IMG/VR virus record: IMGVR_UViG_3300029624_000014
Coordinates: 1-41,337 of that record
Strand: one strand, 5' to 3'
Source: a virus
Length of the DNA: 41,337 bases
The stretch's first letter is position 1. Every line of letters starts with the position of its first letter. The notes below the pieces were generated by a model. The model saw only the letters and a program-made list of their open reading frames with translations, was not told the origin of the DNA and did no database searches. The position numbers were made by a program, and so were the translations under genes. Shown one piece after another: positions 11,193-41,337 of the stretch.

Positions 11193-12507
11193 TCCTCCGA
11201 CATTTTCAAATGTTCAGTTGCTGTTGAATTTCGACGGCAACACCACGGACCTCAGTTCGAACGCGCGCACGCCCGACAGCGCTGCGGGCTCCGTAGGCCT
11301 TGTGGGGTTTGCAGCAGACATTGCTTCTACGTCTGCTATGGCGACGGCCGTCGCCAAATTTGGACAAGCGCTAGTAAGGTCTGGCGACAGCGAGACTATG
11401 GGGGTGGGGTATGGCTACGACTATACTAGTGGTGACCTTGTCCCAAGCGAGGGGGAAGACTTTACGTGCGAATTTTGGCTGTCTTCTCTGGAAGCCTTCT
11501 CAGGAGTGCAGGGCATTGTCATTGATGGCGGCGGCCTTCGCATACGGATCACGCACTTTGCGACTAAGTCATTTGAAGCAAGAGTAGCAGGTGCCTCGGC
11601 AACAGTTGACCTTGTCTACAATTTTGGCAGCGATGATCCGTTCGATGACGGCGCGTCTCATTTCTACGTTTTCCAGAAAGAAGGCTCGACTTACTCTATA
11701 TGGTTTGACGGAACGCGCGTCGCGCAAGATACGCAGCCCAGCCAGCTCGATCTCGGTGAGACGGGCACTATTTACATTGGCGGCGATAGCTCAGCGTCTA
11801 ATAACTCGTATGCGGGCGCTTTCGACAGTTTGCGTATTACAAAGGAAGCGGTGTACGAAGGTTCCCCCGCATCAATTCCCGTTCCAACATCCCCTTTTCC
11901 GTCGGGCATTCCTGAAAGCGACGATCTACGACAGCGAGCGTGGCAGTTTACTTTTGACGGACATCCTTTTTATGTCCTGCGGCTAGGGAACACGTCCACA
12001 CTAGTCTATGACTTGCTAACGGGGCAGTGGGCTGAGTGGGAGACTGACGGATACGACACTTGGAACGCAAACAACGGTCTCGATGACTGGGAAGGGTACC
12101 CTGTCGCAGGCGATGGCGACGACGGCAATATATACCGCGTAAGTGCGGATGCGGACGTTACAAACGACCAAGGCTCTCTTGACATTCAACGGCGCATAAG
12201 TGCGATCATCCCGCACACGGGCACCAACTGGGCTTCACAAGGAGATTTGCGCGTGTCCGCTAGTGTCGGTGACCCTGTAGATACCGATATTGACTTGGAG
12301 CTTAGCTGGAGCGACGATCAAGGACAGACTTACACAACGCAGACAATTTTGCTTGAACAAAGCGCGTTTCGCCAAATGCTGTGGTTTCAGTCATTAGGCT
12401 CTTTTCAGTCGCCGGGGCGCGTAGTACGGATTAGCGACAAAGGCGGCTTAGTGCGTATCGACGGAATTGACGCGGACCTAAGAGGTATTGACGTTGGCTC
12501 GAATTGA
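11185..12507 (+). CDS. LamG-like lectin domain fused to the C-terminal half of the gp10-like hub
   Basis: 440 aa. Residues 1 to about 228 form a concanavalin/LamG-type jelly roll: LLLNFDGN, FTCEFWLS, STYSIWFDGTRVA, TIYIGGDSS and FDSLRITK are the usual strand signatures. After a Pro-rich linker, residues 243-440 resume the gp10 family exactly where the previous gene stopped: FTFDGHPFYVLRL, STLVYDLLTGQW, and late strands corresponding to the gp10 C-terminus. The start ATG overlaps the previous stop by eight bases, with AAAGG eight bases upstream, so it can be translated independently. Together the two genes supply one hub plus a displayed lectin-like domain. Confidence 0.8.
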   Translation: MANPPTFSNVQLLLNFDGNTTDLSSNARTPDSAAGSVGLVGFAADIASTSAMATAVAKFGQALVRSGDSETMGVGYGYDYTSGDLVPSEGEDFTCEFWLSSLEAFSGVQGIVIDGGGLRIRITHFATKSFEARVAGASATVDLVYNFGSDDPFDDGASHFYVFQKEGSTYSIWFDGTRVAQDTQPSQLDLGETGTIYIGGDSSASNNSYAGAFDSLRITKEAVYEGSPASIPVPTSPFPSGIPESDDLRQRAWQFTFDGHPFYVLRLGNTSTLVYDLLTGQWAEWETDGYDTWNANNGLDDWEGYPVAGDGDDGNIYRVSADADVTNDQGSLDIQRRISAIIPHTGTNWASQGDLRVSASVGDPVDTDIDLELSWSDDQGQTYTTQTILLEQSAFRQMLWFQSLGSFQSPGRVVRISDKGGLVRIDGIDADLRGIDVGSN

Positions 12508-13744
12508 CCCGCTGCGGTTTAATACTCCGTTAACGGACGGAGACCGCTATCCTTCTCAGCAATTTCTCAGGCAGTGGAACCAGCAAATTGCGGTAAACAC
12601 CGAGGTTACAGGCGATGTCGCGTTTTTGCAAGATGAAATTGAAGACATTCAAGACGTTGATATAGTCGCCGGAACAGGCCTCGAAGGGGGTGGAAACATA
12701 GCAGGCCCCGGCAACGTCACACTTAATCTCGAAGATACGGCGGTCACGCCGGGCTCTTACACACTAGCCTCCATAACGGTAGACCAGCAGGGCCGTCTCA
12801 CGGCGGCTTCGTCCGGCGCAGTGCCCATCGAAGACGACGGCACGCCGGGGGGGAGCGCTTCGACGTTCAATTTTGGCTCTGGTGTCGATGCCTCAGTCGA
12901 TAGCGCTGGAACAGTAACTATTACAGTTCCCGGAGGCTCGGGAGGTGTTGACATTGAAGACGACGGATCGCCAGTTGCAACGGGTGTCACCACCTTAAAT
13001 TTTGGCACCAATCTCACGGCAACGGTAGACAGCGCTAGTGTCGTTACGATCGCAGCGTCGGGGAGCGGGGGAGGTGTTGACATTGAAGACGACGGATCGC
13101 CAGTTGCAGCGGGTGTCACCACCTTAAATTTTGGCACGGACCTCGATGCGACCGCAGACAGTGCTGGCGTCGTCACTGTTGCGTTCGGAGGCTCAGCGGG
13201 GGGCTCTGGACCTTGGGAGTTGGTTACGTCGCTTGCTGTTACGAGCGCGCAAACTAACATTGACGTTCCGTTTACGGACACGACGGCGGATGTGTTTCGA
13301 ATTTGTGGGTTTATACGCGCAAATGATAATAACGGGGTTAGTTTTTTCGGGCAGTTCACGGATGACAATTTTTCATCAGTGATAGGCGGAAACTACAACA
13401 ACCGAGGCGTTATTCTTTACGACGGCGGCGTTTCTGCAAATCGAAAAGGTGGCGATCGTTGCTGGTTTACAACTGATGAAGTTTCAAATGATGCGGAAAG
13501 GCTGACTTATCTAGACTTGTTGTTTTTTCGGCCCGGCGATAGCTCGACGTGGACGCAGTATTATGGGGAATGCTGGGGGCCTTTCGACAGCAATAGCGGA
13601 ACGCGTAACTGGCGTGTACAAGGCCGCCTAGCCACGACGGACGTGGTCGACGGCATCCGCCTGCGCCTCACAGCTAACGGGGGCTCAGGGTCGTCCGATT
13701 TTGCGGAAGCTCAGCTCCGTTTGTATAAGCAGTTCTACGCATGA
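12494..13744 (+). CDS. Tail fibre protein with tandem beta modules
   Basis: 416 aa from TTG at 12494, which has AAGAGG eight bases upstream; TTG at 12488 is in frame but too close. Residues 1-60 are a likely attachment region with a short coiled coil. A classic fibre motif follows (VAGTGLEGGGNI ... VTPGSYTLASITVDQQGRLTAAS). Then come three modules of about 43 residues starting (V)xIEDDGxP and ending in Gly/Ser, and a C-terminal jelly-roll-like head (about 245-416). It follows gp10 where P22 has its needle gp26, and probably contributes receptor binding. No endoglycosidase tailspike was seen elsewhere. Confidence 0.75.
   Translation: MARIDPLRFNTPLTDGDRYPSQQFLRQWNQQIAVNTEVTGDVAFLQDEIEDIQDVDIVAGTGLEGGGNIAGPGNVTLNLEDTAVTPGSYTLASITVDQQGRLTAASSGAVPIEDDGTPGGSASTFNFGSGVDASVDSAGTVTITVPGGSGGVDIEDDGSPVATGVTTLNFGTNLTATVDSASVVTIAASGSGGGVDIEDDGSPVAAGVTTLNFGTDLDATADSAGVVTVAFGGSAGGSGPWELVTSLAVTSAQTNIDVPFTDTTADVFRICGFIRANDNNGVSFFGQFTDDNFSSVIGGNYNNRGVILYDGGVSANRKGGDRCWFTTDEVSNDAERLTYLDLLFFRPGDSSTWTQYYGECWGPFDSNSGTRNWRVQGRLATTDVVDGIRLRLTANGGSGSSDFAEAQLRLYKQFYA
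12941..13137 (+). repeat. Near-identical 68-bp direct repeat within the fibre gene
   Basis: Bases 12941-13008 and 13070-13137 match at 67 of 68 positions, 129 bp apart, within the second and third fibre modules. The rest of each module has diverged. This is recent or gene-converted duplication that could vary fibre length. Confidence 0.9.
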
Positions 13745-14316
13745 CGACGGTGCTTATAATTGGAGGCGGTCCTAGCGTTCGAGACATTGACCTAGAAGAA
13801 GCGCAGCATATCGATACGCTCGCCGTAAACAACGCATGGGAGATAGCGCCGTGGGCGTACGCCATGGTTTTTGGGGATAGCCGATGGTGGGTAGGCTGGG
13901 GCAACGGAGAGCGTGTATTGAAGAACTTCAAAGGGCGTATAATCTCCACCAACAAAGGCATCGGAGACCCTCCACGCGTCGAGTATTATGATGTCAGCAA
14001 CGACTACACAGACCTCGACAAGGACACCGCCTTGCAAGGGCCTGACAGCGGCTCCAAAGCTATCAGTTTCGCGTACCGTCACATGCAAGCAAGCACAATC
14101 TTGCTCGCCGGCTTCGATCTAGCAGTCGGCAAAGATGGCAGGACACACTGGCATACGCGCCACCAAGCCCCAGTACAGAAGGGCGCTTTGGCGAATTTCG
14201 CTGAAAAACAGGCGGCGCTATACCGAGAACTGCGTGACCGTGGCGTTGACATTTTCAGGGTGACACAGCCCGGCTTAGAGGCTATTCCTTACCGTTGTCT
14301 TGAGAGTTTCCTGTGA
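13741..14316 (+). CDS. DUF115/MptE-like Rossmann protein
   Basis: 191 aa. The N-terminus TTVLIIGGGPSVRDID is the Gly-rich loop seen in the MptE-like/DUF115 family, which includes 6-hydroxymethylpterin pyrophosphokinase-like and Maf-type glycosyltransferase-like proteins. Further signatures are the AVNNAW strand, GPDSGSKAISFAY (the conserved SG..A block) and ILLAGFDL. It overlaps the fibre gene by ATGA and the next gene by GTGA. Homologues occur in other phage tail regions without known function. Transfer of a nucleotide-activated group to a virion protein or host glycan is a possibility, not shown. Confidence 0.65.
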   Translation: MTTVLIIGGGPSVRDIDLEEAQHIDTLAVNNAWEIAPWAYAMVFGDSRWWVGWGNGERVLKNFKGRIISTNKGIGDPPRVEYYDVSNDYTDLDKDTALQGPDSGSKAISFAYRHMQASTILLAGFDLAVGKDGRTHWHTRHQAPVQKGALANFAEKQAALYRELRDRGVDIFRVTQPGLEAIPYRCLESFL

Positions 14317-14756
14317 CAGTCTGGCGCACCGTTAACTCTAAATTCGTCAACGACTGGGTGAACCGCTCAGAAATACTTCCCTACGTGACGCCCCCGCAGC
14401 TATCAGTCGATAAACTAGATATAACTAGCGCCGTCGAGGATCGCGAAACGCTCTGGCTAGTTTACGGGGACGCCATGGCCGTTTTTTCGCCGCTTGGTGA
14501 CCGCGAGTACGACGGGCACTACTTGTTCAAATCTTCTTGTCGTGGAAAAAAAGCGCTATTCGCTGCGCAGAAACTGCTTGACGAGGTGTTTACAAGATAC
14601 CGCGCGCTCGCTATTGTCGGCCGTATTTCGCGAGACAACCGCGCTGCGCGCTATATTACGCGTGCTTTAGGCTTTCACCCCACAGGTGCCGACCTGTCAG
14701 ACGGCTACGTTGAATACCGCTTGGAGCGCACGCAGTGGGAAACATCTTTGGACTAG
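14313..14756 (+). CDS. GNAT-like protein, P22 gp14 position
   Basis: 147 aa. The C-terminal block SRDNRAARYITRALGF is the signature end of GNAT acetyltransferases (N.aA...y.r.GF), and the strand pattern LWLVYGDAMAVFSPL ... DGHYLFKSSCRGKKAL fits a small GNAT fold. In P22 the gene just before the ejection proteins encodes gp14, a small protein of related type, and T7 gp13 holds a similar place. It may aid assembly of ejection proteins rather than act as an enzyme. GTG start, GTGA overlap. Confidence 0.65.
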   Translation: MTVWRTVNSKFVNDWVNRSEILPYVTPPQLSVDKLDITSAVEDRETLWLVYGDAMAVFSPLGDREYDGHYLFKSSCRGKKALFAAQKLLDEVFTRYRALAIVGRISRDNRAARYITRALGFHPTGADLSDGYVEYRLERTQWETSLD

Positions 14757-18775: not shown

Positions 18776-19021
18776 ATGGCCGTTAAGAACCGCCCGATGC
18801 GTATGACACGGGCGTATGTGGAAGGGTATGTCGAAGGCCGGACAAATCCCGCCACGCACGTTGAAGCCCCTTACGCTCGAACGCAGGAAGTAAATGACTT
18901 TGCTCGCGGATTACACCGGGGCCGGGTCTTACGAGCATTCTTCAGTCAAACTAAAACAGGCAACGTCGAGATTGATAAGGACGTGCTGGCTCTGCGCCGC
19001 GAACGAGGAGAGAAAATCTAA
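18776..19021 (+). CDS. Hypothetical protein, 81 aa
   Basis: Not recognised. CACAGGAGAGAGT precedes the ATG. A basic soluble protein beginning with repeated RMTRAYVEGYVEGRTNP, where YVEGRTNP and the later FARGLHRGR may form two short helices. Its TAA shares a base with the next ATG (TAATG), so it is coupled to the HTH-metallophosphoesterase gene and may work with it. Confidence 0.65.
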   Translation: MAVKNRPMRMTRAYVEGYVEGRTNPATHVEAPYARTQEVNDFARGLHRGRVLRAFFSQTKTGNVEIDKDVLALRRERGEKI

Positions 19022-20625
19022 TGGCCACTTCAAAAAATATCCCAGACGAGCAAGTGCTTGCAGCATGGGACAATGCTAGCGGCAACGCTGCGGAAGCGTG
19101 CAGAAAGCTGGGGATAAGTCGAGGCAGCCTCTACCCTCGGTTGAAAAAGCTCGGCATTAAGACGGACAAAACCTCGCTGCTTGGCCAGCTAGGAGGTATC
19201 AGCACTGTCAAAATGCCACGCCCAGAAGGCGACGAAGTCAAGCGCTACATCATCACCTCGGCGCAGAATAACACAAAAGTCAACGCAGTGTTCTGGGAGC
19301 GCCTGCTCGACTTAGCGTCTTTCTACGACGCGTCTGTGATGGTCTGTCCGTTTACTTACTCGCCGCAATCATCGCGGACGGAAGTCGACAGCCCATGGTA
19401 CGACCCCGAGGTGCAAGAATTTCTAGTCACTGAGCGCACGCAGCTTGCCCCCGGCCTCATCTTGTGCGCAGAGATTACGCGCACGCTTCCGACCGCAGCC
19501 CGCCCGCTCAGTGGATATGAGGCGTACACGGGCCGCGCGTCAGGCATCTTCCCCCACCCAAAGATCGCCATGGAGCCCATCCCGTCGATGAAGAACGAGG
19601 CGACAAAATTCAACTACACTACAGGATGCGTAACCCGACACAACTACTCTCGCACCAAAGCCGGTTTCAAAGGGGAGTTCCACCACGCCTACGGCGCGTT
19701 GATTGTGGAAGTGACCGCTAACGGGTGGTGGGTGAGACAACTCAACGCTGACAAACAAAACCGCATCTACGACCTCGATGTCTGCATTGACGAAGAAGGT
19801 GTCACGTACGGGGTTCCTGTCGAAGCGCTTATATTTGGGGACTTCCACGCGGCGGAAATCGACCCAGAAGTGCTGCGCGCAACGTGGGGCGATAACGCGC
19901 TTGTTGATTTTCTTCAACCTTCGCAGGCTATCTATCACGACTTTTTCGATATGCGGTCTCGTCCGTGGCAAGACGAAGCGTCGTTCCACCGACAGTTCCA
20001 TAAGCACGTACATGGGCAAGAAAGCGTTCGGGATGAACTCGAAGAAGCGCGGCGTATATTTCTGCAAAAAGTCTGGCGCGAAGGTTGCAAGCATGTTTTT
20101 GTACGAAGCAACCACGACATTAAGTTGGAGAAGTGGCTTGATACAGCAGATTATCGACGCGATCCGGTTAACGCGGAGTTTTTCCTTGAAGCGCAGCTCG
20201 AAAAGGTTAGAGCGATTGCTTCAAAAAACGACCGCTTCAACGTCTTCGAATGGTATATGCGCCGTGACGGGCTCCCCGGCGACATCATATTTCTCCAAGA
20301 AGATGAGAGCTACATCATCTGCCAAAACCGAGGAGGAGGCATCGAGTGTGGTCAGCACGGTCACTTGGGTCCGAACGGGGCCAAAGGTACCCCGCGCGGT
20401 CTTGCAAAAATGGCTCGAAAGCAGTTTATTGGAGACAAGCATAGTCCATGTATTGTTGACGGACTATACGTCGTCGGTACATGCACAGGTAGGAACGTTG
20501 CCTACACGAGAGGGCCTTCTAGCTGGTCGCCGACACATGGAGTTGCTTACGAAAATGGTAAGCGAGCACTACTGACTATGTGGAAAGGTCGTTTCTTTGC
20601 TCCGCGAGAAGGGTTAACGCCGTGA
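19021..20625 (+). CDS. HTH plus metallophosphoesterase protein (T5 A1-like architecture)
   Basis: 534 aa. Residues 1-46 hold a Fis-type helix-turn-helix (GNAAEACRKLGISRGSLYPRL). The C-terminal half shows calcineurin-type metal ligands in order: GDFH (273-276), HDFFD (306-310), SNHD (363-366, for GNHD) and QHGH (445-448). Residues 65-260 form an additional domain. Phage T5 pre-early protein A1, needed for host DNA destruction, also has a metallophosphatase fold; that analogy is inferred, not tested. Binding DNA via the HTH and cutting phosphodiesters is the simplest hypothesis. It lies between lysis genes and may be expressed late. Confidence 0.75.
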   Translation: MATSKNIPDEQVLAAWDNASGNAAEACRKLGISRGSLYPRLKKLGIKTDKTSLLGQLGGISTVKMPRPEGDEVKRYIITSAQNNTKVNAVFWERLLDLASFYDASVMVCPFTYSPQSSRTEVDSPWYDPEVQEFLVTERTQLAPGLILCAEITRTLPTAARPLSGYEAYTGRASGIFPHPKIAMEPIPSMKNEATKFNYTTGCVTRHNYSRTKAGFKGEFHHAYGALIVEVTANGWWVRQLNADKQNRIYDLDVCIDEEGVTYGVPVEALIFGDFHAAEIDPEVLRATWGDNALVDFLQPSQAIYHDFFDMRSRPWQDEASFHRQFHKHVHGQESVRDELEEARRIFLQKVWREGCKHVFVRSNHDIKLEKWLDTADYRRDPVNAEFFLEAQLEKVRAIASKNDRFNVFEWYMRRDGLPGDIIFLQEDESYIICQNRGGGIECGQHGHLGPNGAKGTPRGLAKMARKQFIGDKHSPCIVDGLYVVGTCTGRNVAYTRGPSSWSPTHGVAYENGKRALLTMWKGRFFAPREGLTP

Positions 20626-20879: not shown

Positions 20880-21013
20880 TGCCACTTAAAAAAGGCAAAT
20901 CCAAGAAAGTCATATCGTCTAACATCCGCAAAGAGATGAAAGCAGGAAAGCCTCAAAAGCAGGCGGTCGCCATTGCGCTGAACAAAGCAGGAAAAAGCAG
21001 GAGAAAGAAATGA
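20879..21013 (+). CDS. Small basic protein, 44 aa (DUF6496-like)
   Basis: ATG shares an A with the preceding TGA (TGATG). The sequence [16 protein letters not shown], then [17 protein letters not shown], matches a short basic family widespread in phages and annotated DUF6496 or as a hypothetical protein. Its function is unknown; a charged N-terminus with one helix suggests nucleic acid contact. It overlaps the next gene by ATGA. Confidence 0.7.
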
Positions 21014-21675
21014 CGCGCGCTGAGAACTTTTTTTATGAAGGCCACTTTGACCGTTGCGAAGGGGTGAAGCCACGCACAAAGTTTGTTTATCACTGGGATG
21101 AACAAAACTATCGCTTGGGGTATGGCAGTGCCAGTGAAATTCCATCTTTAAGCCACCCGGTAGGGGACATTGACAGCGACGAACGCGGCTCAGGCGCACG
21201 CGCCATCGGAGGCAAACCAAAGCTCGAATACGTACCCCTTACCGTGCTCCTTTCTGTTGCGCTTCGCCGCCATCTGTTACCGGAAGTCGACTTGCAAACA
21301 ATGGAGTTCCTCGCCGACTTCGAGGCGCGCGACGACCTCCACGGAGCGTCAAAGGCGCTTGAACGGCTGTGGGAAACGCACGGTATTGAGAGCACGTGCG
21401 CGCAGTTTGATTTCGGAGCCAAGAAGTACAAGGCGTGGAACTGGGCGAAGGGCATGAAGTGGTCCGTTCCCCTTGCATGCATCAAACGGCATTTGTGGGC
21501 GCTACTAAACGGCGAAGACATCGACCCAGAGAGTGGAGTAAGCCACTGGGGAGCGATAGGCTGCAATCTAGTCATGCTCGCGCACTTCGCCACGTTCTAC
21601 CCCGAAGGTGACGACCGCCCGCCCGCCTCGATGTTTGCGGTTGACACTCCGGCGGCCGAAGCCGACAACAGCTAG
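21010..21675 (+). CDS. dATP/dGTP diphosphohydrolase-like (MazG-related all-alpha NTPase)
   Basis: 221 aa. The core block [17 protein letters not shown] followed by [22 protein letters not shown] and [10 protein letters not shown] is the signature of the phage dATP/dGTP diphosphohydrolase family (DUF5664 type), related to MazZ of cyanophage S-2L. An N-terminal region contains the [11 protein letters not shown] motif also common in this family. It would hydrolyse purine dNTPs to monophosphates and so alter pools. No PurZ- or DatZ-like gene was seen, so it does not by itself indicate a 2-aminoadenine genome. Confidence 0.75.
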
Positions 21676-21830: not shown

Positions 21831-21868
21831 AGCCCATCGCATACGCGACTATGCGATGGGCTCTTTTT
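21831..21868 (+). terminator. Rho-independent terminator before the endolysin
   Basis: AGCCCATCGCATA (21831-21843) pairs perfectly with TATGCGATGGGCT (21850-21862) around six bases, followed by CTTTTT. The 13-bp stem lies between the small membrane peptide and the endolysin ribosome binding site, so it would attenuate endolysin and sulfotransferase expression. Confidence 0.92.
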
Positions 21869-21880
21869 CATGGAGGACGC

Positions 21881-22381
21881 ATGACCTATCCCGGCAACCC
21901 GCACCAGCTCGGGGAAGACGGTCTCCGTCTTCTTAAAGACTTCGAAGGTCTTGTGCTCTACACCTACGACGACTTCGACCCGAAGCCGACTAAGACTTTC
22001 ATACAACAACCCGAAGACGCGGTGTGGGGCGGCACTTTGACCATCGGTCACGGCCACACAGGCCCGGACGTCGTCCCCGGATTGCGGATCAACGAGCGTA
22101 CCGCCGCCGCTTACTTGCGCGCCGACGTAGGACAAGCGGAGCTGGCGGTATATGGGGGACTGCGCGTCAAAGTGCGCCAAACGCAGTTCGACGCGCTTGT
22201 GTGTTTCACCTACAACGTAGGGGCGGCTAACTGGCGCGCGTCGACGCTCCGTCGGAAGTTGAACGACGGAGACGACTACGGAGCCGCTCAAGAGTTTGAG
22301 CGCTGGGTCTTTTCCAAAGGTAAGCGTCTCAAAGGGCTAGAGCGCCGTAGAGCGGCTGAGAAGGAGCTGTTCCTCCGGTGA
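21881..22381 (+). CDS. Endolysin, T4/P22-type lysozyme (GH24)
   Basis: 166 aa from ATG at 21881 (TGGAGGACGC upstream); an in-frame ATG at 21851 lies inside the terminator hairpin and is rejected. The GH24 pattern is clear: catalytic Glu22 in LLKDFEGL, Asp31 in TYDDF, Thr54 in TLTIGHGHTG, then FDALVCFTYNVGA and RRAAEKELF at the end. A loop of about 15 residues separates Asp31 from the TIGHGHTG strand, longer than usual. No signal peptide or SAR segment is visible, so export would rely on the holin. It cleaves peptidoglycan glycan strands. Confidence 0.92.
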   Translation: MTYPGNPHQLGEDGLRLLKDFEGLVLYTYDDFDPKPTKTFIQQPEDAVWGGTLTIGHGHTGPDVVPGLRINERTAAAYLRADVGQAELAVYGGLRVKVRQTQFDALVCFTYNVGAANWRASTLRRKLNDGDDYGAAQEFERWVFSKGKRLKGLERRRAAEKELFLR

Positions 22382-22944
22382 GTTTCTTCCTCCTCAAGCC
22401 TGAGAACGTTGTCCACATCCACATATCGAAGACAGGAGGCTCAACCCTTCGTCTCGGCGTGTGGGGGAAAGAGAACTACGAAGGGCCGGCCTTTGGTGGA
22501 ATGCCGGGGGCCTGGGCTCCGCGGTATAAGTTCGCGTTCGTTCGGCATCCTATGGAGCGTTTCTACTCCGCGTATCGCGACTTTTCACAGATACGTAACT
22601 ACCAAGGAACCGTTGAAGATTTTGCGCGGGTCACTCTGAGAGCAGCCCCAGAAGGCCCGTGGGTACGTGTTTGCAGCGGCATAAGTGACCACAACATCCA
22701 ACACCACACGGCTCCTCAGACGTGGCCAGAGCACGGCTTACAGCACGCCAACTTCATAGGCCGCTATGAGCAATACACGCGCGACGTAGTACGCTTGTTC
22801 AAGCACATTGGCAGGCCTGCGCCGGCGTCTCTACCCCGTCTTCGTGAAACGGAGCCCGCCCCGCTGCGCATGGATCGCGGTCTGTTTCGCGAACTCAAGG
22901 AGTTCTATCGCAAAGACTACAAGGAGCTGGGTTACGATGATTGA
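22378..22944 (+). CDS. Sulfotransferase-family protein
   Basis: 188 aa from GTG overlapping the endolysin stop (GTGA). Two PAPS-binding motifs are present: HISKTGGST (15-23) for the 5'-phosphosulfate loop, and FVRHPMERFYSAY (54-66) with Arg56 and Ser64 for the 3'-phosphate. This fits Sulfotransfer_2-type carbohydrate sulfotransferases, though shorter than most. It would move sulfate from PAPS to a sugar hydroxyl. Glycosyltransferases and a methyltransferase lie across the convergence point, suggesting a glycan-modification cluster. Its end overlaps the oppositely transcribed Rz1-like gene. Confidence 0.82.
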   Translation: MSFFLLKPENVVHIHISKTGGSTLRLGVWGKENYEGPAFGGMPGAWAPRYKFAFVRHPMERFYSAYRDFSQIRNYQGTVEDFARVTLRAAPEGPWVRVCSGISDHNIQHHTAPQTWPEHGLQHANFIGRYEQYTRDVVRLFKHIGRPAPASLPRLRETEPAPLRMDRGLFRELKEFYRKDYKELGYDD

Positions 22945-23225
22945 AGGGAGTGATAAAACTCGCGGTATGACTGAGAGCAGCGAAGCGCTCGTAGCTCAGA
23001 TTTACGCAGAGTTGCCATTAGATCGGCTGTCTGGGCGCGACTTAGCGGTCCTGTCGGGATTGGTGATGGCTGCTGCTGAGCGCAAGCTAGCAGCGGAGAG
23101 GGCAGCTCGGGCAGCTTCGGCTCACTGAATAGCGCGCAGCCGCTCAACGACATCGCCGCTAAGACACAAGTCATTAGCGCCGGGCTCTTGTTTTGCCGCT
23201 TCTCTGATAGCTTCCGCTCGATCAT
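22932..23225 (-). CDS. Rz1: o-spanin lipoprotein, Rz1-like
   Basis: 97 aa from ATG at 23225, which has AAGGAAAAC upstream; ATG at 23174 is an alternative. A signal sequence ends in the lipobox LSGC, followed by a Pro-rich stretch (PKLPELPSPLLAC ... PSPIPTGPLS) and a C-terminus with Leu/Arg and Cys (LRALRCSQSY), as in P2 LysC/Rz1-type proteins. It starts inside the Rz-like gene in another frame, the classical arrangement. It would be the outer membrane partner that fuses membranes at lysis. Unusually it is on the strand opposite to the endolysin. Confidence 0.8.
   Translation of the reverse strand: MIERKLSEKRQNKSPALMTCVLAAMSLSGCALFSEPKLPELPSPLLACAQQQPSPIPTGPLSRAQTADLMATLRKSELRALRCSQSYREFYHSLQSS
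22937..23128 (+). CDS. Possible 63-aa protein antisense to Rz1
   Basis: ATG at 22937 overlaps the sulfotransferase stop by eight bases, a typical operon junction, and the product (IYAELPLDRLSGRDLAVLSGLVMAAAERKLAAE) looks like a plausible helical protein. It lies almost wholly antisense to the Rz1-like gene, whose features are stronger. Either both strands code here or this frame is a shadow. Confidence 0.35.
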   Translation: MIEGSDKTRGMTESSEALVAQIYAELPLDRLSGRDLAVLSGLVMAAAERKLAAERAARAASAH

Positions 23226-23430
23226 TGTTTTCCTTGTCCGTCTGCGCGTCGGCGACGCCTCGCTCGTATGCACGGGCGGTTGCTGCGCCGGTCTTTTCCG
23301 CGTATTCCGCCTGTGCTTGGGCTGCGGACAGCTTGCACCGCGTAGTTGCATCTTGGCGACCTTTGACATACGCGCCGACGACGATAAGCAGCGCCGCGGC
23401 GATGGGCCAAAAACGCGTCAACGCAGCCAT
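23122..23430 (-). CDS. Rz: i-spanin, Rz-like
   Basis: 102 aa. An N-terminal membrane anchor (about residues 7-22, FWPIAAALLIVVGAYV) is followed by a charged helical periplasmic domain (GRQDATTRCKL ... AQAQAEYAEKTGAATARAYERGVADAQ) and a short C-terminal tail. This is the layout of inner-membrane spanins. The Rz1-like lipoprotein gene starts within it in a different frame. The start overlaps the upstream stop as TAATG. Together they would disrupt the outer membrane after the endolysin acts. Confidence 0.82.
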   Translation of the reverse strand: MAALTRFWPIAAALLIVVGAYVKGRQDATTRCKLSAAQAQAEYAEKTGAATARAYERGVADAQTDKENNDRAEAIREAAKQEPGANDLCLSGDVVERLRAIQ

Positions 23431-23624
23431 TAGCGATCAGTCCACTCAGGCTCGACGCAGGCGGTTGAGAACTGAAGGTGTGGTCCCATATTTGCCGTCG
23501 CGCGTTGGTGAAAGTATTTTTCGAATTTCTGACACTGCTCAGTGTCGTCGAAAGGGCGGATTATAATCTGTTGCTCGTTCGCAAACACGTCTACAAGCAC
23601 GGCGAGGAACAAGGCTTCAATCAT
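23430..23624 (-). CDS. Small protein with hydrophobic N-terminus, 64 aa
   Basis: ATG at 23624 with CTAGGAGGCTAGAT upstream, a strong ribosome binding site. A hydrophobic N-terminus (IEALFLAVLVDVFA) could be a signal or anchor; the rest is soluble with two Cys. It overlaps the Rz-like start and probably belongs to the lysis end of the operon. Not recognised. Confidence 0.6.
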   Translation of the reverse strand: MIEALFLAVLVDVFANEQQIIIRPFDDTEQCQKFEKYFHQRATANMGPHLQFSTACVEPEWTDR

Positions 23625-23626
23625 AT

Positions 23627-23770
23627 CTAGCCTCCTAGTCCGGTAAACGACGCAATTATAGCAAATGCACCAAGAAGAACGGCTCCCGCAGCGTCAGGGT
23701 TAGTGAGCCCGATGTACGCCACCAGCACAACTGCAAGGCCAAAAACGATAATACGTGCACGCTTTTTCAA
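23627..23770 (-). CDS. Small membrane protein, 47 aa
   Basis: TTG at 23770 follows AAGGTGATCTT. A basic N-terminus (KKRAR) is followed by two hydrophobic segments (IIVFGLAVVLVAYIGL and AGAVLLGAFAIIASF) with a short NPD turn. Two spans in 47 residues resemble small class II holins, and the next genes downstream include the spanins, so a second holin is possible. The non-ATG start lowers certainty. Confidence 0.55.
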   Translation of the reverse strand: MKKRARIIVFGLAVVLVAYIGLTNPDAAGAVLLGAFAIIASFTGLGG

Positions 23771-23811
23771 AAGATCACCTTGTCAGTGGGCAGAAGCCAC
23801 GCCGCCTCCGT

Positions 23812-23839
23812 GCTAGCGACGGAACCTACTTCCGTTAGC
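23812..23839 (-). other. Stem-loop at the end of the glycosyltransferase gene
   Basis: ACGGAA (23819-23824) pairs with TTCCGT (23830-23835), and outer GCTA/TAGC pairs extend it with a three-base bulge. It overlaps the glycosyltransferase stop codon. There is no T-tract, so attenuation or RNA processing is only a guess. Confidence 0.3.
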
Positions 23840-24434
23840 CAGCGCTGTCAACCTTCGCCTTTAAGCGCCGAGATGCTTGATAGTGAACAATGACAGGGTC
23901 TTCGTTGGGCTGCGGGCCGTCGAATATAGTTGAGTATCGGAGAGGCAGCATCGTCAGGCGGTGGTCAGGAAGGCAGTTGGAGACGAGCTTTTCCAGACAC
24001 GCTTGCTCTGTCTGGCTTGCTTCGCTTTCTTGTAGGTAGCCAAGAGCGCGGGACTGAGCATGCGAGCGCCAGAAACCCAGTAAATGAGACGCGGAGATGT
24101 CTTTCCCAAAAACCATTGTACCAGATGAAAGGTTGCCTTTGGGCTGACGAAAGTGCGCAGCAAAGCCGAGGTTTATACTGAACAGCATCTTCGGGTAGGC
24201 CACTACTTCTGCATCCGCATCGAGCCACACAAGAGAACAGTCTTTCCAGCGACGCCTGCACGCGTCTAGAATGAAAGGCTTTTCCCATATATTCTCACGC
24301 CACGAGCCCCGCGACGTATAGCCGACTAGCTCGTAGTCCAGCCCAAACTTTTGCAAAGAAGGCTCTAAGCGCGTCTTGACCTCCTCCTCGTAGCCCGTGC
24401 CGATGGTGTAGCCCGAAACAAACAGCGTGGTCAT
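23835..24434 (-). CDS. GT-A-type glycosyltransferase-like protein
   Basis: 199 aa. The core motif SLVWLDADAEVVAYP contains the DxD (Asp72, Asp74) that binds metal and nucleotide-sugar in GT-A enzymes, preceded by the KPFILDACRRRW helix typical of this group. Later SGTMVFGKD and IVHYQASRR correspond to acceptor and C-terminal loops. The end resembles nucleotide-diphospho-sugar transferases found near capsule genes. It overlaps the preceding gene by ATGA and would act in the cytoplasm on a glycan or protein acceptor that cannot be named. Confidence 0.75.
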   Translation of the reverse strand: MTTLFVSGYTIGTGYEEEVKTRLEPSLQKFGLDYELVGYTSRGSWRENIWEKPFILDACRRRWKDCSLVWLDADAEVVAYPKMLFSINLGFAAHFRQPKGNLSSGTMVFGKDISASHLLGFWRSHAQSRALGYLQESEASQTEQACLEKLVSNCLPDHRLTMLPLRYSTIFDGPQPNEDPVIVHYQASRRLKAKVDSAG

Positions 24435-25225
24435 AAAAGCTCCTTCGTCAGGTGCTGGAAAGGCAGCCCTTCGCGCATTTCATCGAGCGTCCACTGCGTA
24501 TAAGCAAGGTTGTGCGCCCACTGGGTGCGGTCGGGCATCGGCGGTTCATCGAGCGTCCACTGCTGTACCAAAGAAGCCACCATAGAGCGCCGACGCAGGG
24601 GTATGTGGGGAACGCCCTCTATGACGCTGTCAACGCCCGCGGTGGAGCAGAGCGCTATGGTAGCCCAGCAATTGCGCAGGTCTTCGACAAGAGGCTTTGC
24701 TTTTCCAACGACGGCAGGATGCTTCCTGAGCCGCACAGGACGTTTTTGCGAATTTTCCAGCAAGTGCACAATCTCCTGCACACGGCGCTCGTAACCTTCG
24801 TTCTGCACGCTCGTGTCCCACGGGACTTGGCCCAACACCAGCCAGTGCTCCCCGTCTTGCCGCCACGGCCGAAGATTGACGCCAAGACGCTCCCACCGAT
24901 CGCCGGGGGAGTTGGCGTTCTTATAGTCAGCAAAGCCGCCTCCGTCGCCCAGCCCGCACGCGTAGTGCGTGTCGCGGCGCACGTAGCCTCGCTCCATAAC
25001 AATGCAGTGGGGAGCGGCTGCGCGTATTTCGTCGCGGTAGAACGAGCGGGAAAGGAACTTCGTCGACGTAACGCCCCAGACAATCGCCACGTCGCAGGGC
25101 TCGTAGCGCACTTCTGCAAGTCGAATGTCATGCCCCAGAGACCGAACCCCCTCGTACATGGCGCGCTGAGCGTCCATGACGCGAGGGTCAGTCTCGTTGT
25201 TGTGGAACAGGCGCACTACGGCCAC
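24431..25225 (-). CDS. GT-B-like/capsule-export-like glycosyltransferase
   Basis: 264 aa from GTG at 25225. The second half shows LVLGQVPWDTSV, a helix, VRLRKHPAV and CWATIALCSTAGVDSVIEGVPHI, resembling the Kdo-transferase or capsule polysaccharide GT-B group, where RxHP and the ST.gVEa..G.P motif line the donor site. The N-terminal Rossmann half is less typical. It is coupled to the GT-A gene downstream and to the methyltransferase upstream. Donor and acceptor are unknown. Confidence 0.65.
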   Translation of the reverse strand: MAVVRLFHNNETDPRVMDAQRAMYEGVRSLGHDIRLAEVRYEPCDVAIVWGVTSTKFLSRSFYRDEIRAAAPHCIVMERGYVRRDTHYACGLGDGGGFADYKNANSPGDRWERLGVNLRPWRQDGEHWLVLGQVPWDTSVQNEGYERRVQEIVHLLENSQKRPVRLRKHPAVVGKAKPLVEDLRNCWATIALCSTAGVDSVIEGVPHIPLRRRSMVASLVQQWTLDEPPMPDRTQWAHNLAYTQWTLDEMREGLPFQHLTKELL

Positions 25226-25752
25226 ACGAACACCATGCCGTTGTCGCGGAAGAAGTCACGCTGCATTGTCGAAGCCTCCTTCGCAGCTTGCGTCAGCATG
25301 GTGTCGTATTTGAACCCCTCGTCCTCAAACTTAGCTATCCAATACTCCGCCGGCCGCTCATTGTGGTGGTGGGGAATGTTGCGCCCGGAGGGAGGATGCG
25401 CCGTAGCCGCGACGAGGTTTGCGCGGCTCAGCGTCACAAGCGCGTTCGGAGCATGCTCCTCCGGCAAGTGCTCAAGGAACTCATTGCACCACGCAAGGTC
25501 AAAGAAAACGCTGGGGGCGAAGTGTAAGGGGCCTTCCAAAAAGTCGTGCGTTATAGTCGCTCCAACGTCCGGGTCGCCGTCCACTCCGACGATGTCGTCG
25601 TAGCCAAGCGATTTAGCGGCGTCGCATTGGCCGCCGGGACCGCAACCTACGTCGAGCAGGCTGCGACAGCCCATGTGGTCGCGGAAGAAACGGAGCACGC
25701 CTTCGTCGACGTGCGTCCGTCCTAAGTGTGAGCGGTTGTGCCAGTCGGCCAC
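25216..25752 (-). CDS. Class I SAM-dependent methyltransferase
   Basis: 178 aa from GTG at 25752. Motif I is LLDVGCGPGGQ (32-42), followed by IVGVDGD as the motif II acid, and FDLAWCNEFLEHL near motif IV. There is no NPPY/NPPF motif, arguing against DNA adenine methylation; a small-molecule, sugar or protein substrate fits better. It precedes the two glycosyltransferases in the operon, consistent with methylation of a glycan. It overlaps the next gene by ten bases. Confidence 0.8.
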   Translation of the reverse strand: MADWHNRSHLGRTHVDEGVLRFFRDHMGCRSLLDVGCGPGGQCDAAKSLGYDDIVGVDGDPDVGATITHDFLEGPLHFAPSVFFDLAWCNEFLEHLPEEHAPNALVTLSRANLVAATAHPPSGRNIPHHHNERPAEYWIAKFEDEGFKYDTMLTQAAKEASTMQRDFFRDNGMVFVWP

Positions 25753-25756
25753 GTTC

Positions 25757-26272
25757 TTACTCGCAGAGGGAGTTAAAAGCTTCTTCCGCGGCTTTGGCGG
25801 CGGCTTTGGCGGCTTCTTTCAGAGCTTCGCCGTCGCCCGATCCGGTGTACGACACTTCTATACGCGGCTCTGGGTCGCCATTATCGTTCACGCCAACGCA
25901 TACGTTGATGTGGTAGCAAGGGTCCGTCAAAACACCATTAAAGAAAGGGGCGCTCTGTTCGGGCGTCTTTTCAGACGGCGTAGCCAAGCCTCCCTGCATC
26001 AACGCCTGCGTCTCGGACGAGAACGCGGCTGAGATAGGCGCTTCCGCCGGCTGCGGAGCTGCTTCAACTGGTACAGCGCGCGGCGTCGTATTGGTAAGCT
26101 TTTGCTCGATCTTCTCCTCTTGCGTGGGCTCTGCGGCTTCAGGCGACGAGGCCTTCGCTGGTGCGTCCCAGCCCTTGATGCCTTGCTTGGCGGGTGGGGT
26201 GGTCGGAGCCTGCTGCTGCGCTGGCGCGGCCTGAGCCGCTTCCGCTTTCCGCTTTAGTTTTTCGAAGGCCAT
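25757..26272 (-). CDS. Internal in-frame start: C-terminal 171-aa product
   Basis: Within the helicase frame, ATG at 26272 (residue 495) is preceded by CAACAGGAGAGTGAC, as good a ribosome binding site as any in the window and better than that of the helicase itself. The product begins MAFEKLKRKAEAAQ, runs through a Pro/Ala-rich linker, and ends in a small folded-looking region (CYHINVCVGVNDNGDP, then an Ala-rich helix). It may be a formerly separate gene now in frame with the helicase, or a second product made alongside the fusion. Confidence 0.5.
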   Translation of the reverse strand: MAFEKLKRKAEAAQAAPAQQQAPTTPPAKQGIKGWDAPAKASSPEAAEPTQEEKIEQKLTNTTPRAVPVEAAPQPAEAPISAAFSSETQALMQGGLATPSEKTPEQSAPFFNGVLTDPCYHINVCVGVNDNGDPEPRIEVSYTGSGDGEALKEAAKAAAKAAEEAFNSLCE

Positions 26273-27754
26273 GTCACTCTCCTGTTGAGTTGCTTCAGAT
26301 TTGAACGCTGTGTTGATGGACTGCAAGAACCGTTCCTGCGTACTATCCTTGTCCAGCAACGCTGCGTACTTCAATTCGTCGATGCTGTCGTCGACGAGTA
26401 GAAGATGGTTTATAATGTGGTCCGCTGTGTTGCCTTGGCGACATATACGCGCGATGACCTGATCATATACTTCAAAGTCCCACACCGCTGAAAAATGACA
26501 GATATGCTGCGCGCCGCCTTTCTGAAAGTTCAGTCCGTGCCCTGCTGATACAGGATGTACGGCGAGCACGTCAATAGCGTTTGCGTTCCAGTCATCTTGA
26601 ATGTCGTACGCTTCGGCATCCGTGGTGCCTTTGCCGAGGTATCGAAGTGGTTTGCCAAAACGCTTCTCATGCCATTCTTTGAGCTGATCGAGATCATGGT
26701 TAAACTCATACGTGACGAGTAACGCCGCGCCGTTCAACTCCGAGACAAGGTCGTCAAGAGCCTCGATCTTCGCACCGTGCACATCGATAACGCGCCGACC
26801 GCTACTGCCCGCCTCAGTGTTCGCGTAAACGCGGCCGTTCGCGAGCTGGGCGAGCTTGCTATAGAGCCCCGCCGCGTTCGCCGCTTCAACGGCCCCGCCT
26901 TCGACTTGTAGCAGCATCTCTTTTTTAAGCGTGTCATACGCTTTCTTCGACTTCGGATCGAGTTTGATCCGTATTAAGTTGTCGATCTTCTGCGGCATGT
27001 CAATCCAATCCTCCGCGGCGATGCGAAGGACAAGGGGCGCGATGGCTTCTTCAATACGTTTGTCAGCGCCGGGGGCTAGCTTGTAGTCATAGCCTGCGAA
27101 ACCGTCCGGCTGAAAATACTTGTCGCGGAATTTGCGAATGCTGTAGCCAAGAGAGTTTCCGCCATCAAGTAGAAGTATTTGGCCGAACAAGTCTTCGTAG
27201 CCGTTAGGAGTGGGCGTGCCTGTCAGCCCCCAAACACGCGCCGTTTTGGAAGTAAGCTTACGAAGCTTCTTACTCCGGTCGCTCATGTGGTTCTTGAACT
27301 TGGTAAGCTCGTCAACAACCACGGTGTCGAATGGGAACTCGGAGGGGCGGTGTTTGTATTGCTCGTATAACCACGCCACGCCTTCCGGGTTGATGAGCCA
27401 GATGTCAGCGTCTTGGCGCGCCAGCTCCTTTTCTTTCTTCGCCAAAGGCCCGTCGGGCTTCCACGGCGGCCGGGAGTTGTGCAGCCATGCGAACCGGAGA
27501 TGCGTGAACTCCCTCCACTCTTGGCTCTCTTGCCACCACGTTAGCTGGCACACGCGCCGCGGAGCGATGACGAGGACGCGCTGCGCCACGCCGCTTTCCA
27601 GCAGCGCGGAGACCGCGGCCAGCGTCGCCGCGGTCTTGCCGGTGCCCATGTCGGCGAATAACGCCGCCGCGCCGTTGTGCAAGAGGAACTCAACGGCTTT
27701 CTCTTGGTAAACGCGAGGGGTAAACGGCTTTGCGCTTTGCTTTAAGAGCCGCAC
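25757..27754 (-). CDS. SNF2/DEAD-like superfamily 2 helicase with disordered C-terminal extension
   Basis: 665 aa from GTG at 27754. Helicase motifs in order: Q-like YQEKAVEFL, Walker A ADMGTGKT (34-41), motif Ia VIAPRR, Walker B VVDEL (147-150 region), motif III GLTGTPTPNG (176-185), and C-terminal domain motifs near HPVSAGHGLNFQKGG and VIARICRQGN. It resembles the compact phage SNF2-like helicases that accompany VRR-NUC and PolA genes. The ATPase ends near residue 490. The rest is Pro/Ala-rich and has its own strong internal start at 26272. It probably remodels DNA or drives recombination. Confidence 0.88.
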   Translation of the reverse strand: MRLLKQSAKPFTPRVYQEKAVEFLLHNGAAALFADMGTGKTAATLAAVSALLESGVAQRVLVIAPRRVCQLTWWQESQEWREFTHLRFAWLHNSRPPWKPDGPLAKKEKELARQDADIWLINPEGVAWLYEQYKHRPSEFPFDTVVVDELTKFKNHMSDRSKKLRKLTSKTARVWGLTGTPTPNGYEDLFGQILLLDGGNSLGYSIRKFRDKYFQPDGFAGYDYKLAPGADKRIEEAIAPLVLRIAAEDWIDMPQKIDNLIRIKLDPKSKKAYDTLKKEMLLQVEGGAVEAANAAGLYSKLAQLANGRVYANTEAGSSGRRVIDVHGAKIEALDDLVSELNGAALLVTYEFNHDLDQLKEWHEKRFGKPLRYLGKGTTDAEAYDIQDDWNANAIDVLAVHPVSAGHGLNFQKGGAQHICHFSAVWDFEVYDQVIARICRQGNTADHIINHLLLVDDSIDELKYAALLDKDSTQERFLQSINTAFKSEATQQESDMAFEKLKRKAEAAQAAPAQQQAPTTPPAKQGIKGWDAPAKASSPEAAEPTQEEKIEQKLTNTTPRAVPVEAAPQPAEAPISAAFSSETQALMQGGLATPSEKTPEQSAPFFNGVLTDPCYHINVCVGVNDNGDPEPRIEVSYTGSGDGEALKEAAKAAAKAAEEAFNSLCE

Positions 27755-35936: not shown

Positions 35937-36090
35937 AGCACTGTCCTTGTTGCAAAAGATCGTCGAGGCGTTGCAATTCTTGCGCCAACGCTTCCGCCTG
36001 CGCATCTTGCTCCCTCCACCGCGCATCCTGAAGAAGTCGAAACACATCTTTCCGCTTCGGCCCGATAAGGTCTAAGTTTTTGTGCGTCAT
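35920..36090 (-). CDS. Small hypothetical protein, 56 aa
   Basis: ATG at 36090 overlaps the upstream TGA (ATGA). The product begins MTHKNLDLIGPKRKDVFRLL and continues as a charged Gln/Glu/Leu helix (AQAEALAQELQRLDDLLQQ), a likely coiled coil. The reading is consistent with coupling on both sides. Not recognised. It is short, so easily missed. Confidence 0.6.
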   Translation of the reverse strand: MTHKNLDLIGPKRKDVFRLLQDARWREQDAQAEALAQELQRLDDLLQQGQCYDPKF

Positions 36091-36527
36091 AGTTGCAATA
36101 CGGCCATATCTGCTGCAAGAGCTTTGAACATTTCGGCTTGGTTCTCAAAAACGTCCGTACAAAACCCATACATGACGTCGTAACGCTCGGGATCGCCGTC
36201 TAGGCACACGTAGCACGTCTTCCCCAAGCCCGCCGCATAGCCCAGCTCAAGATGCCCCGACTTGCCCGCGGGCATCAAAAGAATGGCGATATCGCAGCGT
36301 TCGAGGTGGTGTTTGTCAAACTCAAATACGTGTCGCGCGGCATAGCCTTTCAAAGCCTCAGGCAGTGCGCGGCCTCGTCCCACTTCGTAGGCTTTCCAAT
36401 AATCGTCCGCTTCGGGACCGGCGGCGTACCAGTCGTCGAACACGTCGAACCCGAAGCGGCGCAGCTCATTGGCAACGACAGGCACGCCCTCGTTGCGCAA
36501 TGAGCCAATCAAGTATATTGATGTCAT
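36087..36527 (-). CDS. Nucleoside 2-deoxyribosyltransferase-like protein
   Basis: 146 aa. The family fold is visible: an N-terminal strand with IYLIGSLRNEGV (4-15, phosphate/sugar loop), CDIAILLMPAGKSGHLELGYAAGLGK (78-103) with the nucleophile Glu94, and the DDWYAAG acidic segment. Members exchange or hydrolyse bases on deoxyribonucleosides or 5'-monophosphates. In phages they may recycle host nucleosides, make modified nucleotides, or affect nucleotide signals. It overlaps both neighbours by ATGA. Confidence 0.75.
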   Translation of the reverse strand: MTSIYLIGSLRNEGVPVVANELRRFGFDVFDDWYAAGPEADDYWKAYEVGRGRALPEALKGYAARHVFEFDKHHLERCDIAILLMPAGKSGHLELGYAAGLGKTCYVCLDGDPERYDVMYGFCTDVFENQAEMFKALAADMAVLQL

Positions 36528-36802: not shown

Positions 36803-37690
36803 CTATCCTCCGTACCCTTTTATTTTGGCGGAAGCTTCGAGGAAATCAAGGATAGCGAACGTCTCGTCTCCGAGTAGCGTGCCCTGCCTCGTCTGCGCCC
36901 AGTGTTTTCGAGCTTCTTTCATCGTGAAATAGCGGCAACCTGCAATAACGCGCATTTCCCCGTCAGCACAAGGAACGTAAATAAACGGGAAGCCGTCCGA
37001 GCGTAAAATTCCGGAAACCCGCGCGTCGCCGGAAACCTGCGCGTCGCCGGAAACCTGTGCGCGGTCGGAAACCTGTGCGCGATCAAAAACCCGTGCGCGG
37101 CCGAAAACCCGTGCGCCATTGGAAACCCATGCGTCGCCGAAAACCCGTGCGTCGCCGGAAACCTGTGCGCAGTCGGAAACCCGTGCGCCGCCGGAAACCC
37201 GTGCGCCGCCGGAAACCTGTGCGTCGTCGAAAACCCATGCGTCGTCGGAAACCCATGCGCGGTCGGAAACCCATGCGCGGTCGGAAACCTGTGCGCGGCC
37301 GGAAACCTGTGCGCGGCCGGAAACCTGTGCGTCGCCGTAAACCTGTGCGTAGTCGAAAACCCGTGCGTCGTCGAAAACCCATGTGCGGTCGGAAACCCGT
37401 GCGCGGTCGGAAACCCGTGCGCGGCCGGAAACCTGCGCGTCGTCGGAAACCCGTGCGCGGTCGAAAACCTGTGCGTCGTTGGAAACCCATGCGCGGTCGG
37501 AAACCTGTGCGCCACCGAAAACCTGTGCGTCGTCGGAAACCCAAGCGTCTTCTTTCTGTGACAAACTATCTTCAGAGGCGATAAACCCGCCCAAATCGCC
37601 TTTTCTAACGCCGTATGCAGGGATGTCTTGCAGCGCGCGTATTCGCCGCAGGCCGTTTTCGTTTGTCTCGTTTGTAAATTCGTACTTCAT
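36803..37690 (-). CDS. Hexapeptide-repeat beta-helix protein with 30 tandem repeats
   Basis: 295 aa, with AACAGGAGGCTAAAG before the ATG. The N-terminus (LRRIRALQDIPAYGVRKGDLGGFI) matches a known phage/bacterial family whose members continue as DAxVxGxARV repeats. Residues 47-226 are thirty exact-length hexads of the form [D/G/N]x A[R/Q/W]V[S/F]. Val and Ala every six residues should form a left-handed beta-helix. Residues 227-295 are a conserved C-terminal domain (FPFIYVPCADGEMRVIAGCRYFTM). Function is unknown; an elongated rod for binding a partner is likely. Its coding sequence can change length without frameshift. Confidence 0.8.
   Translation of the reverse strand: MKYEFTNETNENGLRRIRALQDIPAYGVRKGDLGGFIASEDSLSQKEDAWVSDDAQVFGGAQVSDRAWVSNDAQVFDRARVSDDAQVSGRARVSDRARVSDRTWVFDDARVFDYAQVYGDAQVSGRAQVSGRAQVSDRAWVSDRAWVSDDAWVFDDAQVSGGARVSGGARVSDCAQVSGDARVFGDAWVSNGARVFGRARVFDRAQVSDRAQVSGDAQVSGDARVSGILRSDGFPFIYVPCADGEMRVIAGCRYFTMKEARKHWAQTRQGTLLGDETFAILDFLEASAKIKGYGG
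37013..37552 (-). repeat. Thirty 18-bp tandem repeats
   Basis: The 540 bp consist of 30 units of 18 bp, of the + strand form GTGCGCGGTCGGAAACCC with variation mainly at the fifth to tenth positions. Conserved GGAAACC and GTGCG blocks flank the variable bases. Because 18 is a multiple of three, several frames stay open across the array, so overlapping frames there are shadows. Such arrays readily gain or lose units by recombination or slippage. Confidence 0.95.
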
Positions 37691-41067: not shown

Positions 41068-41285
41068 TGCACGATCTCCCACGTCACGTATACGCCGTTA
41101 ATATCCGGCCCGAGATATGCGTCGCGAAGAATGCGCTCGGCCTCTTCCGGCGTCTCTGCGTCCTCCGCAGCCCAGATGGTCGGCCAATGGCCGTCAAACC
41201 AATCGGCGACGCGGTAGTTTTCGTTGTATTCTGAGTAATTAAATTCAATGTCGATGTTTGGTGAGAGGGTAGTTTCGTTTTCCAT
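41064..41285 (-). CDS. Hypothetical acidic protein, 73 aa
   Basis: ATG at 41285 follows TAGGAGGCAGTCAC. It is acidic with many aromatic residues (EFNYSEYNENYRVADWFDG) and an alpha segment (DAETPEEAERILRDAYLG). Not recognised. Its first 89 bases are repeated at the left end of the window, and the whole gene is intact only across the circle junction. Confidence 0.65.
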   Translation of the reverse strand: MENETTLSPNIDIEFNYSEYNENYRVADWFDGHWPTIWAAEDAETPEEAERILRDAYLGPDINGVYVTWEIVQ

Positions 41286-41337
41286 GTGACTGCCTCCTAG
41301 TTGATTTTCCGTATAGAAACATGATAAGCGTCGGGGC
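41197..41337. repeat. Terminal direct repeat, right copy
   Basis: Identical to bases 1-141; see the left copy. It joins the operon ending here to that at 1060-101, so the leftward genes continue without a break through the junction. Confidence 0.95.

Follow-up and report, generated by a model that had tools for sequence, protein, structure and literature searches.

Predicted glycan-building and glycan-capping enzymes in two operons of a P22-coat phage, and their possible virion acceptor

What does a phage do with five predicted enzymes of glycan chemistry? The question is raised by a single IMG/VR virus record, IMGVR_UViG_3300029624_000014, which was analyzed over its whole length of 41,337 bp (41.3 kb; hereafter the window). 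It encodes a sulfotransferase, two glycosyltransferases (GTs) of the GT-A and GT-B types, a methyltransferase (MTase), and a DUF115/MptE-like protein (the DUF115-like protein). A sequence-only reading of the window had taken these genes for a glycan-modification cluster, and all genes that it named were found where it had placed them, including a sulfotransferase with both motifs for 3'-phosphoadenosine 5'-phosphosulfate (PAPS). For the set, we computed family or fold, catalytic motifs, absence of membrane segments, and recurrent association in other viruses. Our preferred answer, to which we give slightly less than an even chance, is that the five enzymes are a modular soluble set making or capping a short glycan, with a virion protein as the most likely acceptor.

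Families, folds, and motifs of the five enzymes

The GT-B had no family match in Pfam or NCBIfam. Its AlphaFold2 (AF2) model, built from an alignment of 41 sequences (the window protein and viral contigs), reached a predicted local distance difference test (pLDDT) score of 93.0. In the fold search, all 19 PDB matches with E<=5.1e-4 were KpsC, WbbB, and KrkA (query template modelling score, TMq, 0.44-0.54), and the next unrelated PDB match stood at E 3e-3. The sequence profile independently found KpsC and WbbB, at 6e-4 to 1e-3. The hallmarks of retaining 3-deoxy-D-manno-oct-2-ulosonic acid (Kdo) transferases are QxxxD and the (K/R)xHP motif for cytidine monophosphate (CMP) (PMC12887879), and the catalytic nucleophile of WbbB is Asp232 (PMC9587256). 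Both motifs were readable in the window protein, QxxxD as Q133-VPW-D137 (Q in 40 and D in 34 of the 41 sequences) and RxHP as R167-K-H169-P170 (R 37/41, H 39/41, P 39/41). QVPWD137 aligned with QVEDD of WbbB, the last Asp of which is Asp232; this numbering is fixed because the D232N chain stands in the same output. E78, conserved in 35/41, would be a candidate counterpart of the general base Glu (WbbB Glu158, KrkA Glu102). What the sequence-only reading had called GT-B-like thus has the fold and motifs of the retaining Kdo-transferase type, from which the donor is predicted.

Relatives of the GT-B were found at 71 IMG/VR loci but in only 2 stretches, with nearly the same patterns, among 84,980 bacterial and archaeal species genomes, suggesting that the family is mostly viral at this level of similarity. 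Some Caulobacter phage paralogues (L011:5950-6774 and L107:6659-7495) lack the Asp of QxxxD and possibly have an altered chemistry or are inactive. The same fold was also found in Tetraselmis virus 1 (BFVD A0A2P0VNK4 and A0A2P0VP54, TM 0.74-0.75); because this is a giant virus of an alga, the Kdo-type GT-B appears to be common to phages and eukaryotic viruses.

In the GT-A, the DxD noticed earlier is D72/D74 and was kept in 18/18 relatives. The protein itself had no Pfam match, and one relative (L084) scored above the cut-off of PF03407 (Nucleotid_trans). When its AF2 model (pLDDT 92.5) was searched by fold, the closest solved structure was domain 1 of A064R from Chlorovirus PBCV-1 (PDB 2p6w, TM 0.71, E 2.1e-10). 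The top four solved folds were all A064R domain 1 ('glycosylation of the major capsid'), followed by glycogenin and blood-group enzymes, so the specificity of the GT-A is not readable from the ranking. Its profile found no match among PDB sequences at E<=10, so that no sequence homology to A064R domain 1 was detected.

The DUF115-like protein matched PF01973 (MptE-like) at 3e-4 with 21 bits, below the gathering cut-off of 34.6, as did the relatives that were tested. Its family profile matched the sialyltransferase CstII (GT42) with E 2e-6 over profile positions 10-162, and MptE and Maf more weakly; the window protein is shorter than these. At H141, which is conserved, the window copy reads HQ, whereas several relatives read HP as in the sialyltransferase motif. 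These matches make the protein a candidate GT42-like CMP-sugar transferase. The family also reaches PmgO of phage P1, which has a putative morphogenetic function, and hdmB of P7; the PmgO match could tie the family to virion assembly.

The sulfotransferase matched PF03567 (Sulfotransfer_2) with 44.8 bits against a gathering cut-off of 22, and phrog_3347 ('galactose-3-O-sulfotransferase') at 2.9e-10. Its PAPS motifs were both readable, HISKTGGST and FVRHPMERFYSAY, and the 5'-phosphosulfate-binding (5'-PSB; KTGGST) and 3'-phosphate-binding (3'-PB; RHPxxRxxSxY) elements aligned with those of three other phage sulfotransferases. The MTase matched PF13489/PF08241 and no DNA-MTase model, in keeping with its earlier description as non-DNA-type; by its domain matches, it is a class-I S-adenosylmethionine (SAM) MTase. 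No transmembrane segment was seen in any of the five proteins by hydropathy.

Recurrent association in other viruses

The GTs served as bait for finding loci in other viruses; several of the contigs are related, and the gene calls were mechanical open reading frames (ORFs). The GT-B neighbourhood was surveyed in 40 representatives of the 71 loci, of which 35 could be scored for the upstream gene. A small MTase like that of the window stood immediately upstream of the GT-B in 15 of these 35, compared with 9 of 393 other genes (Fisher p=1.6e-12, the loci not being fully independent). Pfam tallies of the GT-B loci were dominated by MTases, GDP-mannose dehydratase/epimerase, DegT aminotransferase, GT8, MptE-like, and FkbM families, and GT-B relatives lay beside virion genes (SU10 adaptor, head-tail adaptor Ad1, and P22 coat).

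For the GT-A, relatives were found at 20 loci. Among the 17 examined, a DUF115-like domain was linked in 16, in the same protein in 10 (four with weak domain scores of 1e-6 to 1e-8) and at most two genes apart in 6. Because of this linkage, we consider that the DUF115-like and GT-A genes of the window belong together, although they lie 9.5 kb apart on opposite strands, and the earlier assignment of the DUF115-like protein to the set was upheld. Seven of the GT-B or GT-A loci also contain a sulfotransferase: L003/L020, LR756500, Pelagibacter phage Mosig, L027, L029, L062, and L067. The jumbo phage LR756500 encodes four such proteins in a row: a DUF115/GT-A protein, a Capsule_synth GT, an MTase, and a sulfotransferase.

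These associations bear on whether the five are unlinked accessory genes, each acquired separately for a different target and making no joint glycan. Such a history would fit their two strands and two operons, the sulfotransferase that is not conserved beside the endolysin, and the absence of any other fetched locus holding the strict GT-A and GT-B families of the window together. It is opposed by the recurrent order of MTase and GT-B, which in the window have overlapping stops and starts, by the linkage of GT-A and DUF115-like domains, and by the sulfotransferases in seven loci, and we regard it as improbable. The proposal of a glycan-modification cluster therefore stood as far as the families are concerned, which recur together in phages with nucleotide-sugar enzymes, but not as a single unit; likewise, conservation in relatives was seen for the two pairings, and among the fetched loci it was not seen for strict GT-A plus GT-B. 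Judged by gene content, the set is a modular glycan cassette.

The same neighbourhoods make it very improbable that the GTs glycosylate modified bases of the phage's own DNA, of the T4 type or as hypermodified thymidine. Phage GTs can hypermodify DNA (Pyle 2024, as cited in a passage of PMC12619734), the GTs of the window adjoin replication genes, and a nucleoside deoxyribosyltransferase-like gene lies at 36087-36527. However, the ORFs that were scanned include no recognisable gene for a hydroxymethylase, a thymidylate-synthase-like protein, or a base kinase, the relatives co-occur with nucleotide-sugar, sulfotransferase, and FkbM genes rather than with base-modification genes, and the folds match GTs of polysaccharides and capsids.

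Gene layout and the phage genome

The first 141 bases of the window recur perfectly at its end (positions 1-141 = 41197-41337, a direct repeat), and because of this the record is probably a complete genome, that of a P22-coat phage. Virion genes of the P22 type (terminase, P22-like portal, scaffold, and P22 coat) were found, together with a lysis set of Gram-negative type (endolysin, holin-like protein, Rz, and Rz1-like lipoprotein); the minus strand encodes a DNA polymerase of family A, a helicase, and a primase. No integrase was recognised among the ORFs scanned, no DNA match to the window was found among 50,697 phage records, and single-protein queries of the helicase and the sulfotransferase found no relatives in IMG/VR. 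The spanins imply a Gram-negative host. The nearest relatives of the DNA-transfer protein, the DUF115-like protein, and the GT-B are largely phages of Dinoroseobacter, Rhodobacter, Sphingobium, Caulobacter, and Brevundimonas, which makes the alphaproteobacterial host suggested earlier plausible; nothing pointed to rhizobia in particular.

The glycan genes form one functional theme spread over two operons (Table 1). The late rightward block holds the DUF115-like and sulfotransferase genes. On the minus strand, the MTase gene follows the helicase gene after 4 nt, MTase and GT-B overlap by 10 nt, and GT-B and GT-A overlap by 4 nt; this tight packing suggests that the trio, which closes the replication operon, is translationally coupled. 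The sulfotransferase is parted from the GTs by the spanin genes (22932-23430, minus strand) and a small ORF, so these are two groups on opposite strands and not a single cluster.

Table 1. Glycan genes of the window and their neighbours.
Feature	Position	Strand	Evidence
Tail-fibre-like protein, just upstream of DUF115-like gene; candidate acceptor	12488-13744	+	phrog_38058 tail fiber 1.9e-7
DUF115/MptE-like, candidate GT42 (CstII)-like CMP-sugar transferase, directly behind tail-fibre-like gene	13741-14316	+	phrog_4603 'alpha-2,3-sialyltransferase' 6e-23
Possible acetyltransferase, uncertain member; 4-nt overlap with DUF115-like stop	14313-14756	+	PF13302 E=0.052, below cut-off
Endolysin, upstream of sulfotransferase	21851-22381	+	PF00959 5.6e-35
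PAPS-dependent sulfotransferase; GTGA overlap with endolysin stop	22378-22944	+	PF03567 2.2e-11, phrog_3347
Rz1-like lipoprotein, overlaps Rz	22932-23369	-	lipobox LSGC readable
Rz	23122-23430	-	phrog_312 4.7e-4
GT-A (DxD) glycosyltransferase	23835-24434	-	AF2 model, PDB 2p6w fold match, DxD
GT-B, predicted retaining Kdo-transferase type	24431-25225	-	AF2 model, PDB fold matches, motifs
Small SAM-dependent MTase, first gene of minus-strand trio	25216-25752	-	PF13489 4.8e-7
Helicase, immediately upstream of trio	25757-27754	-	phrog_62 DNA helicase 1.4e-128

Several other features of the genome were observed. The possible acetyltransferase, by its weak GNAT match, could bring the glycan-modifying genes to six, with a role in O- or N-acetylation. 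A terminator-like element just before the endolysin, a 13-bp stem with T-rich bases behind it (21831-21862), may set the endolysin and sulfotransferase apart from the late genes further upstream. Around the convergence, promoter and terminator patterns taken together did not exceed chance. A T5 A1-type 'DNA transfer protein' (19021-20625; phrog_1745, 2.4e-156) with an N-terminal Fis-type helix-turn-helix is encoded in this P22-coat phage. Between the holin-like gene and the endolysin, the ORF at 21010-21675 joins a dGTP_diPhyd_N domain (PF18909) to an N-terminal part of unknown type, and its PHROG neighbours include T7-lysozyme-type proteins. The early region carries a YdcK-type beta-solenoid repeat protein (36803-37690; PF18836).

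The acceptor and known systems

From these results we infer the donor sugars, the order of the steps, the acceptor, and that all five enzymes share one glycan. Soluble cytoplasmic transferases would build or cap a short acidic glycan, in which the DUF115/GT42-like protein and the Kdo-type GT-B would use CMP-activated acidic sugars (for example, CMP-Kdo of the host) and the GT-A would add a sugar from a nucleotide-diphosphate donor. The MTase (with SAM) and the sulfotransferase (with PAPS) would cap hydroxyls. A Gram-negative host could supply all of these donors: CMP-Kdo, nucleotide sugars, SAM, and PAPS. The acceptor would be a virion protein, perhaps the tail fibre or the capsid, and the particle would leave the cell glycosylated and sulfated.

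Decoration of the virion is weakly favoured over modification of the host surface, because the relatives sit among structural genes and two of the genes lie late, and because of the parallel with A064R and the precedent of mycobacteriophages. Other observations weigh against it. Retaining Kdo transferases and GT42 enzymes of known function act on lipopolysaccharide (LPS), lipooligosaccharide (LOS), or capsule, not on proteins; a site among structural genes can also mean a merely permissive insertion site; the MTase, GT-B, and GT-A genes continue the leftward replication operon, outside the late operon; D137 is substituted in 7/41 of the GT-B relatives; and the strict GT-A and GT-B pair was, as said, not met elsewhere. 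Ser/Thr-rich termini on structural proteins gave no support either, none being striking, with the highest content in an internal stretch of the major capsid protein (0.33 over 40 residues).

It is quite possible, if somewhat doubtful, that, while infection proceeds, the same enzymes act in the cytoplasm on a surface polysaccharide of the host (LPS core, O-antigen, or capsule), masking receptors against other phages or keeping progeny from sticking to debris. KpsC, WbbB, KrkA, and CstII act on such glycans, all five proteins are soluble as cytoplasmic glycolipid precursors require, and the minus-strand trio was probably made before the virion genes. Moreover, O-antigen modification was proposed by the pelagimyophage authors for GTs of the tail-fibre region (PMC7029224), and the gene content of pelagiphage Mosig points the same way. 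On the other hand, no flippase, polymerase, lipid-carrier, or membrane GT gene was recognised beside the set, the sulfotransferase and DUF115-like genes are late, when a block of superinfection pays little, and the relatives sit within virion gene blocks. Serotype conversion of the gtr type was rejected, as the five-gene set has no membrane proteins by hydropathy.

Virion decoration has a stronger form, which we think unlikely: an acidic glycan, both sulfated and O-methylated, that is carried by the virion itself and made by Kdo-type and sialyltransferase-type GTs with the MTase and the sulfotransferase, as a lineage-crossing analogue of the chlorovirus capsid glycan. If virions are indeed sulfated and glycosylated, the view of adsorption, surface charge, and evasion in environmental phages would change. 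Many phages carry unexplained GTs, and the present analysis provides a concrete, testable assignment, with its usual partners, for a GT-B family that is unrecognised by Pfam/NCBIfam and present in dozens of viral contigs. Neither glycan cassettes of phages nor glycosylated virions are new in themselves. A sulfotransferase-bearing phage glycan cassette was not found described in the open-access literature, subscription papers being outside the search. Nor, as far as the open literature shows, has a description been given of a Kdo-type GT-B that recurs in such cassettes, of the MTase that accompanies it, of the pairing of DUF115 with GT-A, or of the addition of a sulfotransferase.

The fold search that the sequence-only reading had proposed led from the GT-B to KpsC (GT107), WbbB (GT99), and KrkA (GT140) and from the GT-A to A064R domain 1. 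The GT-B shares fold, QxxxD, and (K/R)xHP with the former three, but it has diverged strongly (9-14% in structure alignment), has only 264 aa and is thus the smaller protein, and stands in a viral rather than a capsule context, and it adds a conserved C-terminal QWxxxLAYTQWTxxEMxxG motif. A064R consists of two GTs and an MTase and builds the end of the PBCV-1 capsid glycan; like the window set, it is virus-encoded and soluble (PMC9614988). It presents the same trio of GT-A, second GT, and MTase as the window, and A061L is its partner among the enzymes that build this capsid glycan. In contrast to the separate genes of the window, A064R is one fused protein of a eukaryotic giant virus with L-rhamnose chemistry on an N-glycan, and its sequence identity to the GT-A is about 16% in structure alignment. 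To our knowledge, no sulfotransferase belongs to the PBCV-1 system.

That phage GTs glycosylate virions is established in mycobacteriophages (Freeman 2023, as cited in passages of PMC11256854 and PMC12363180). In Che8, Corndog, and Myrna, phage GTs modify capsid and tail-tube proteins (PMC12363180, PMC11256854), a likeness by description, not by sequence; unlike in the window, no sulfotransferase or Kdo-type GT is reported in the passages of these two sources on the systems. Closer in gene content are phages with much larger genomes. Pelagiphage Mosig has, like the window, a GT-B, a sulfotransferase, a GT, and methyltransferases. In the cultured Caulobacter phages CcrColossus/CcrSC, the stretch from a tail gene to the endolysin holds a DUF115-like gene, two GT-Bs, a further GT, an MTase, and a GT9-like gene; these phages differ from the window by a GT-A of another family, several paralogous GT-Bs, some without the Asp of QxxxD, and no sulfotransferase seen. 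In these Caulobacter phages, the choice between virion decoration and host-surface modification is directly decidable.

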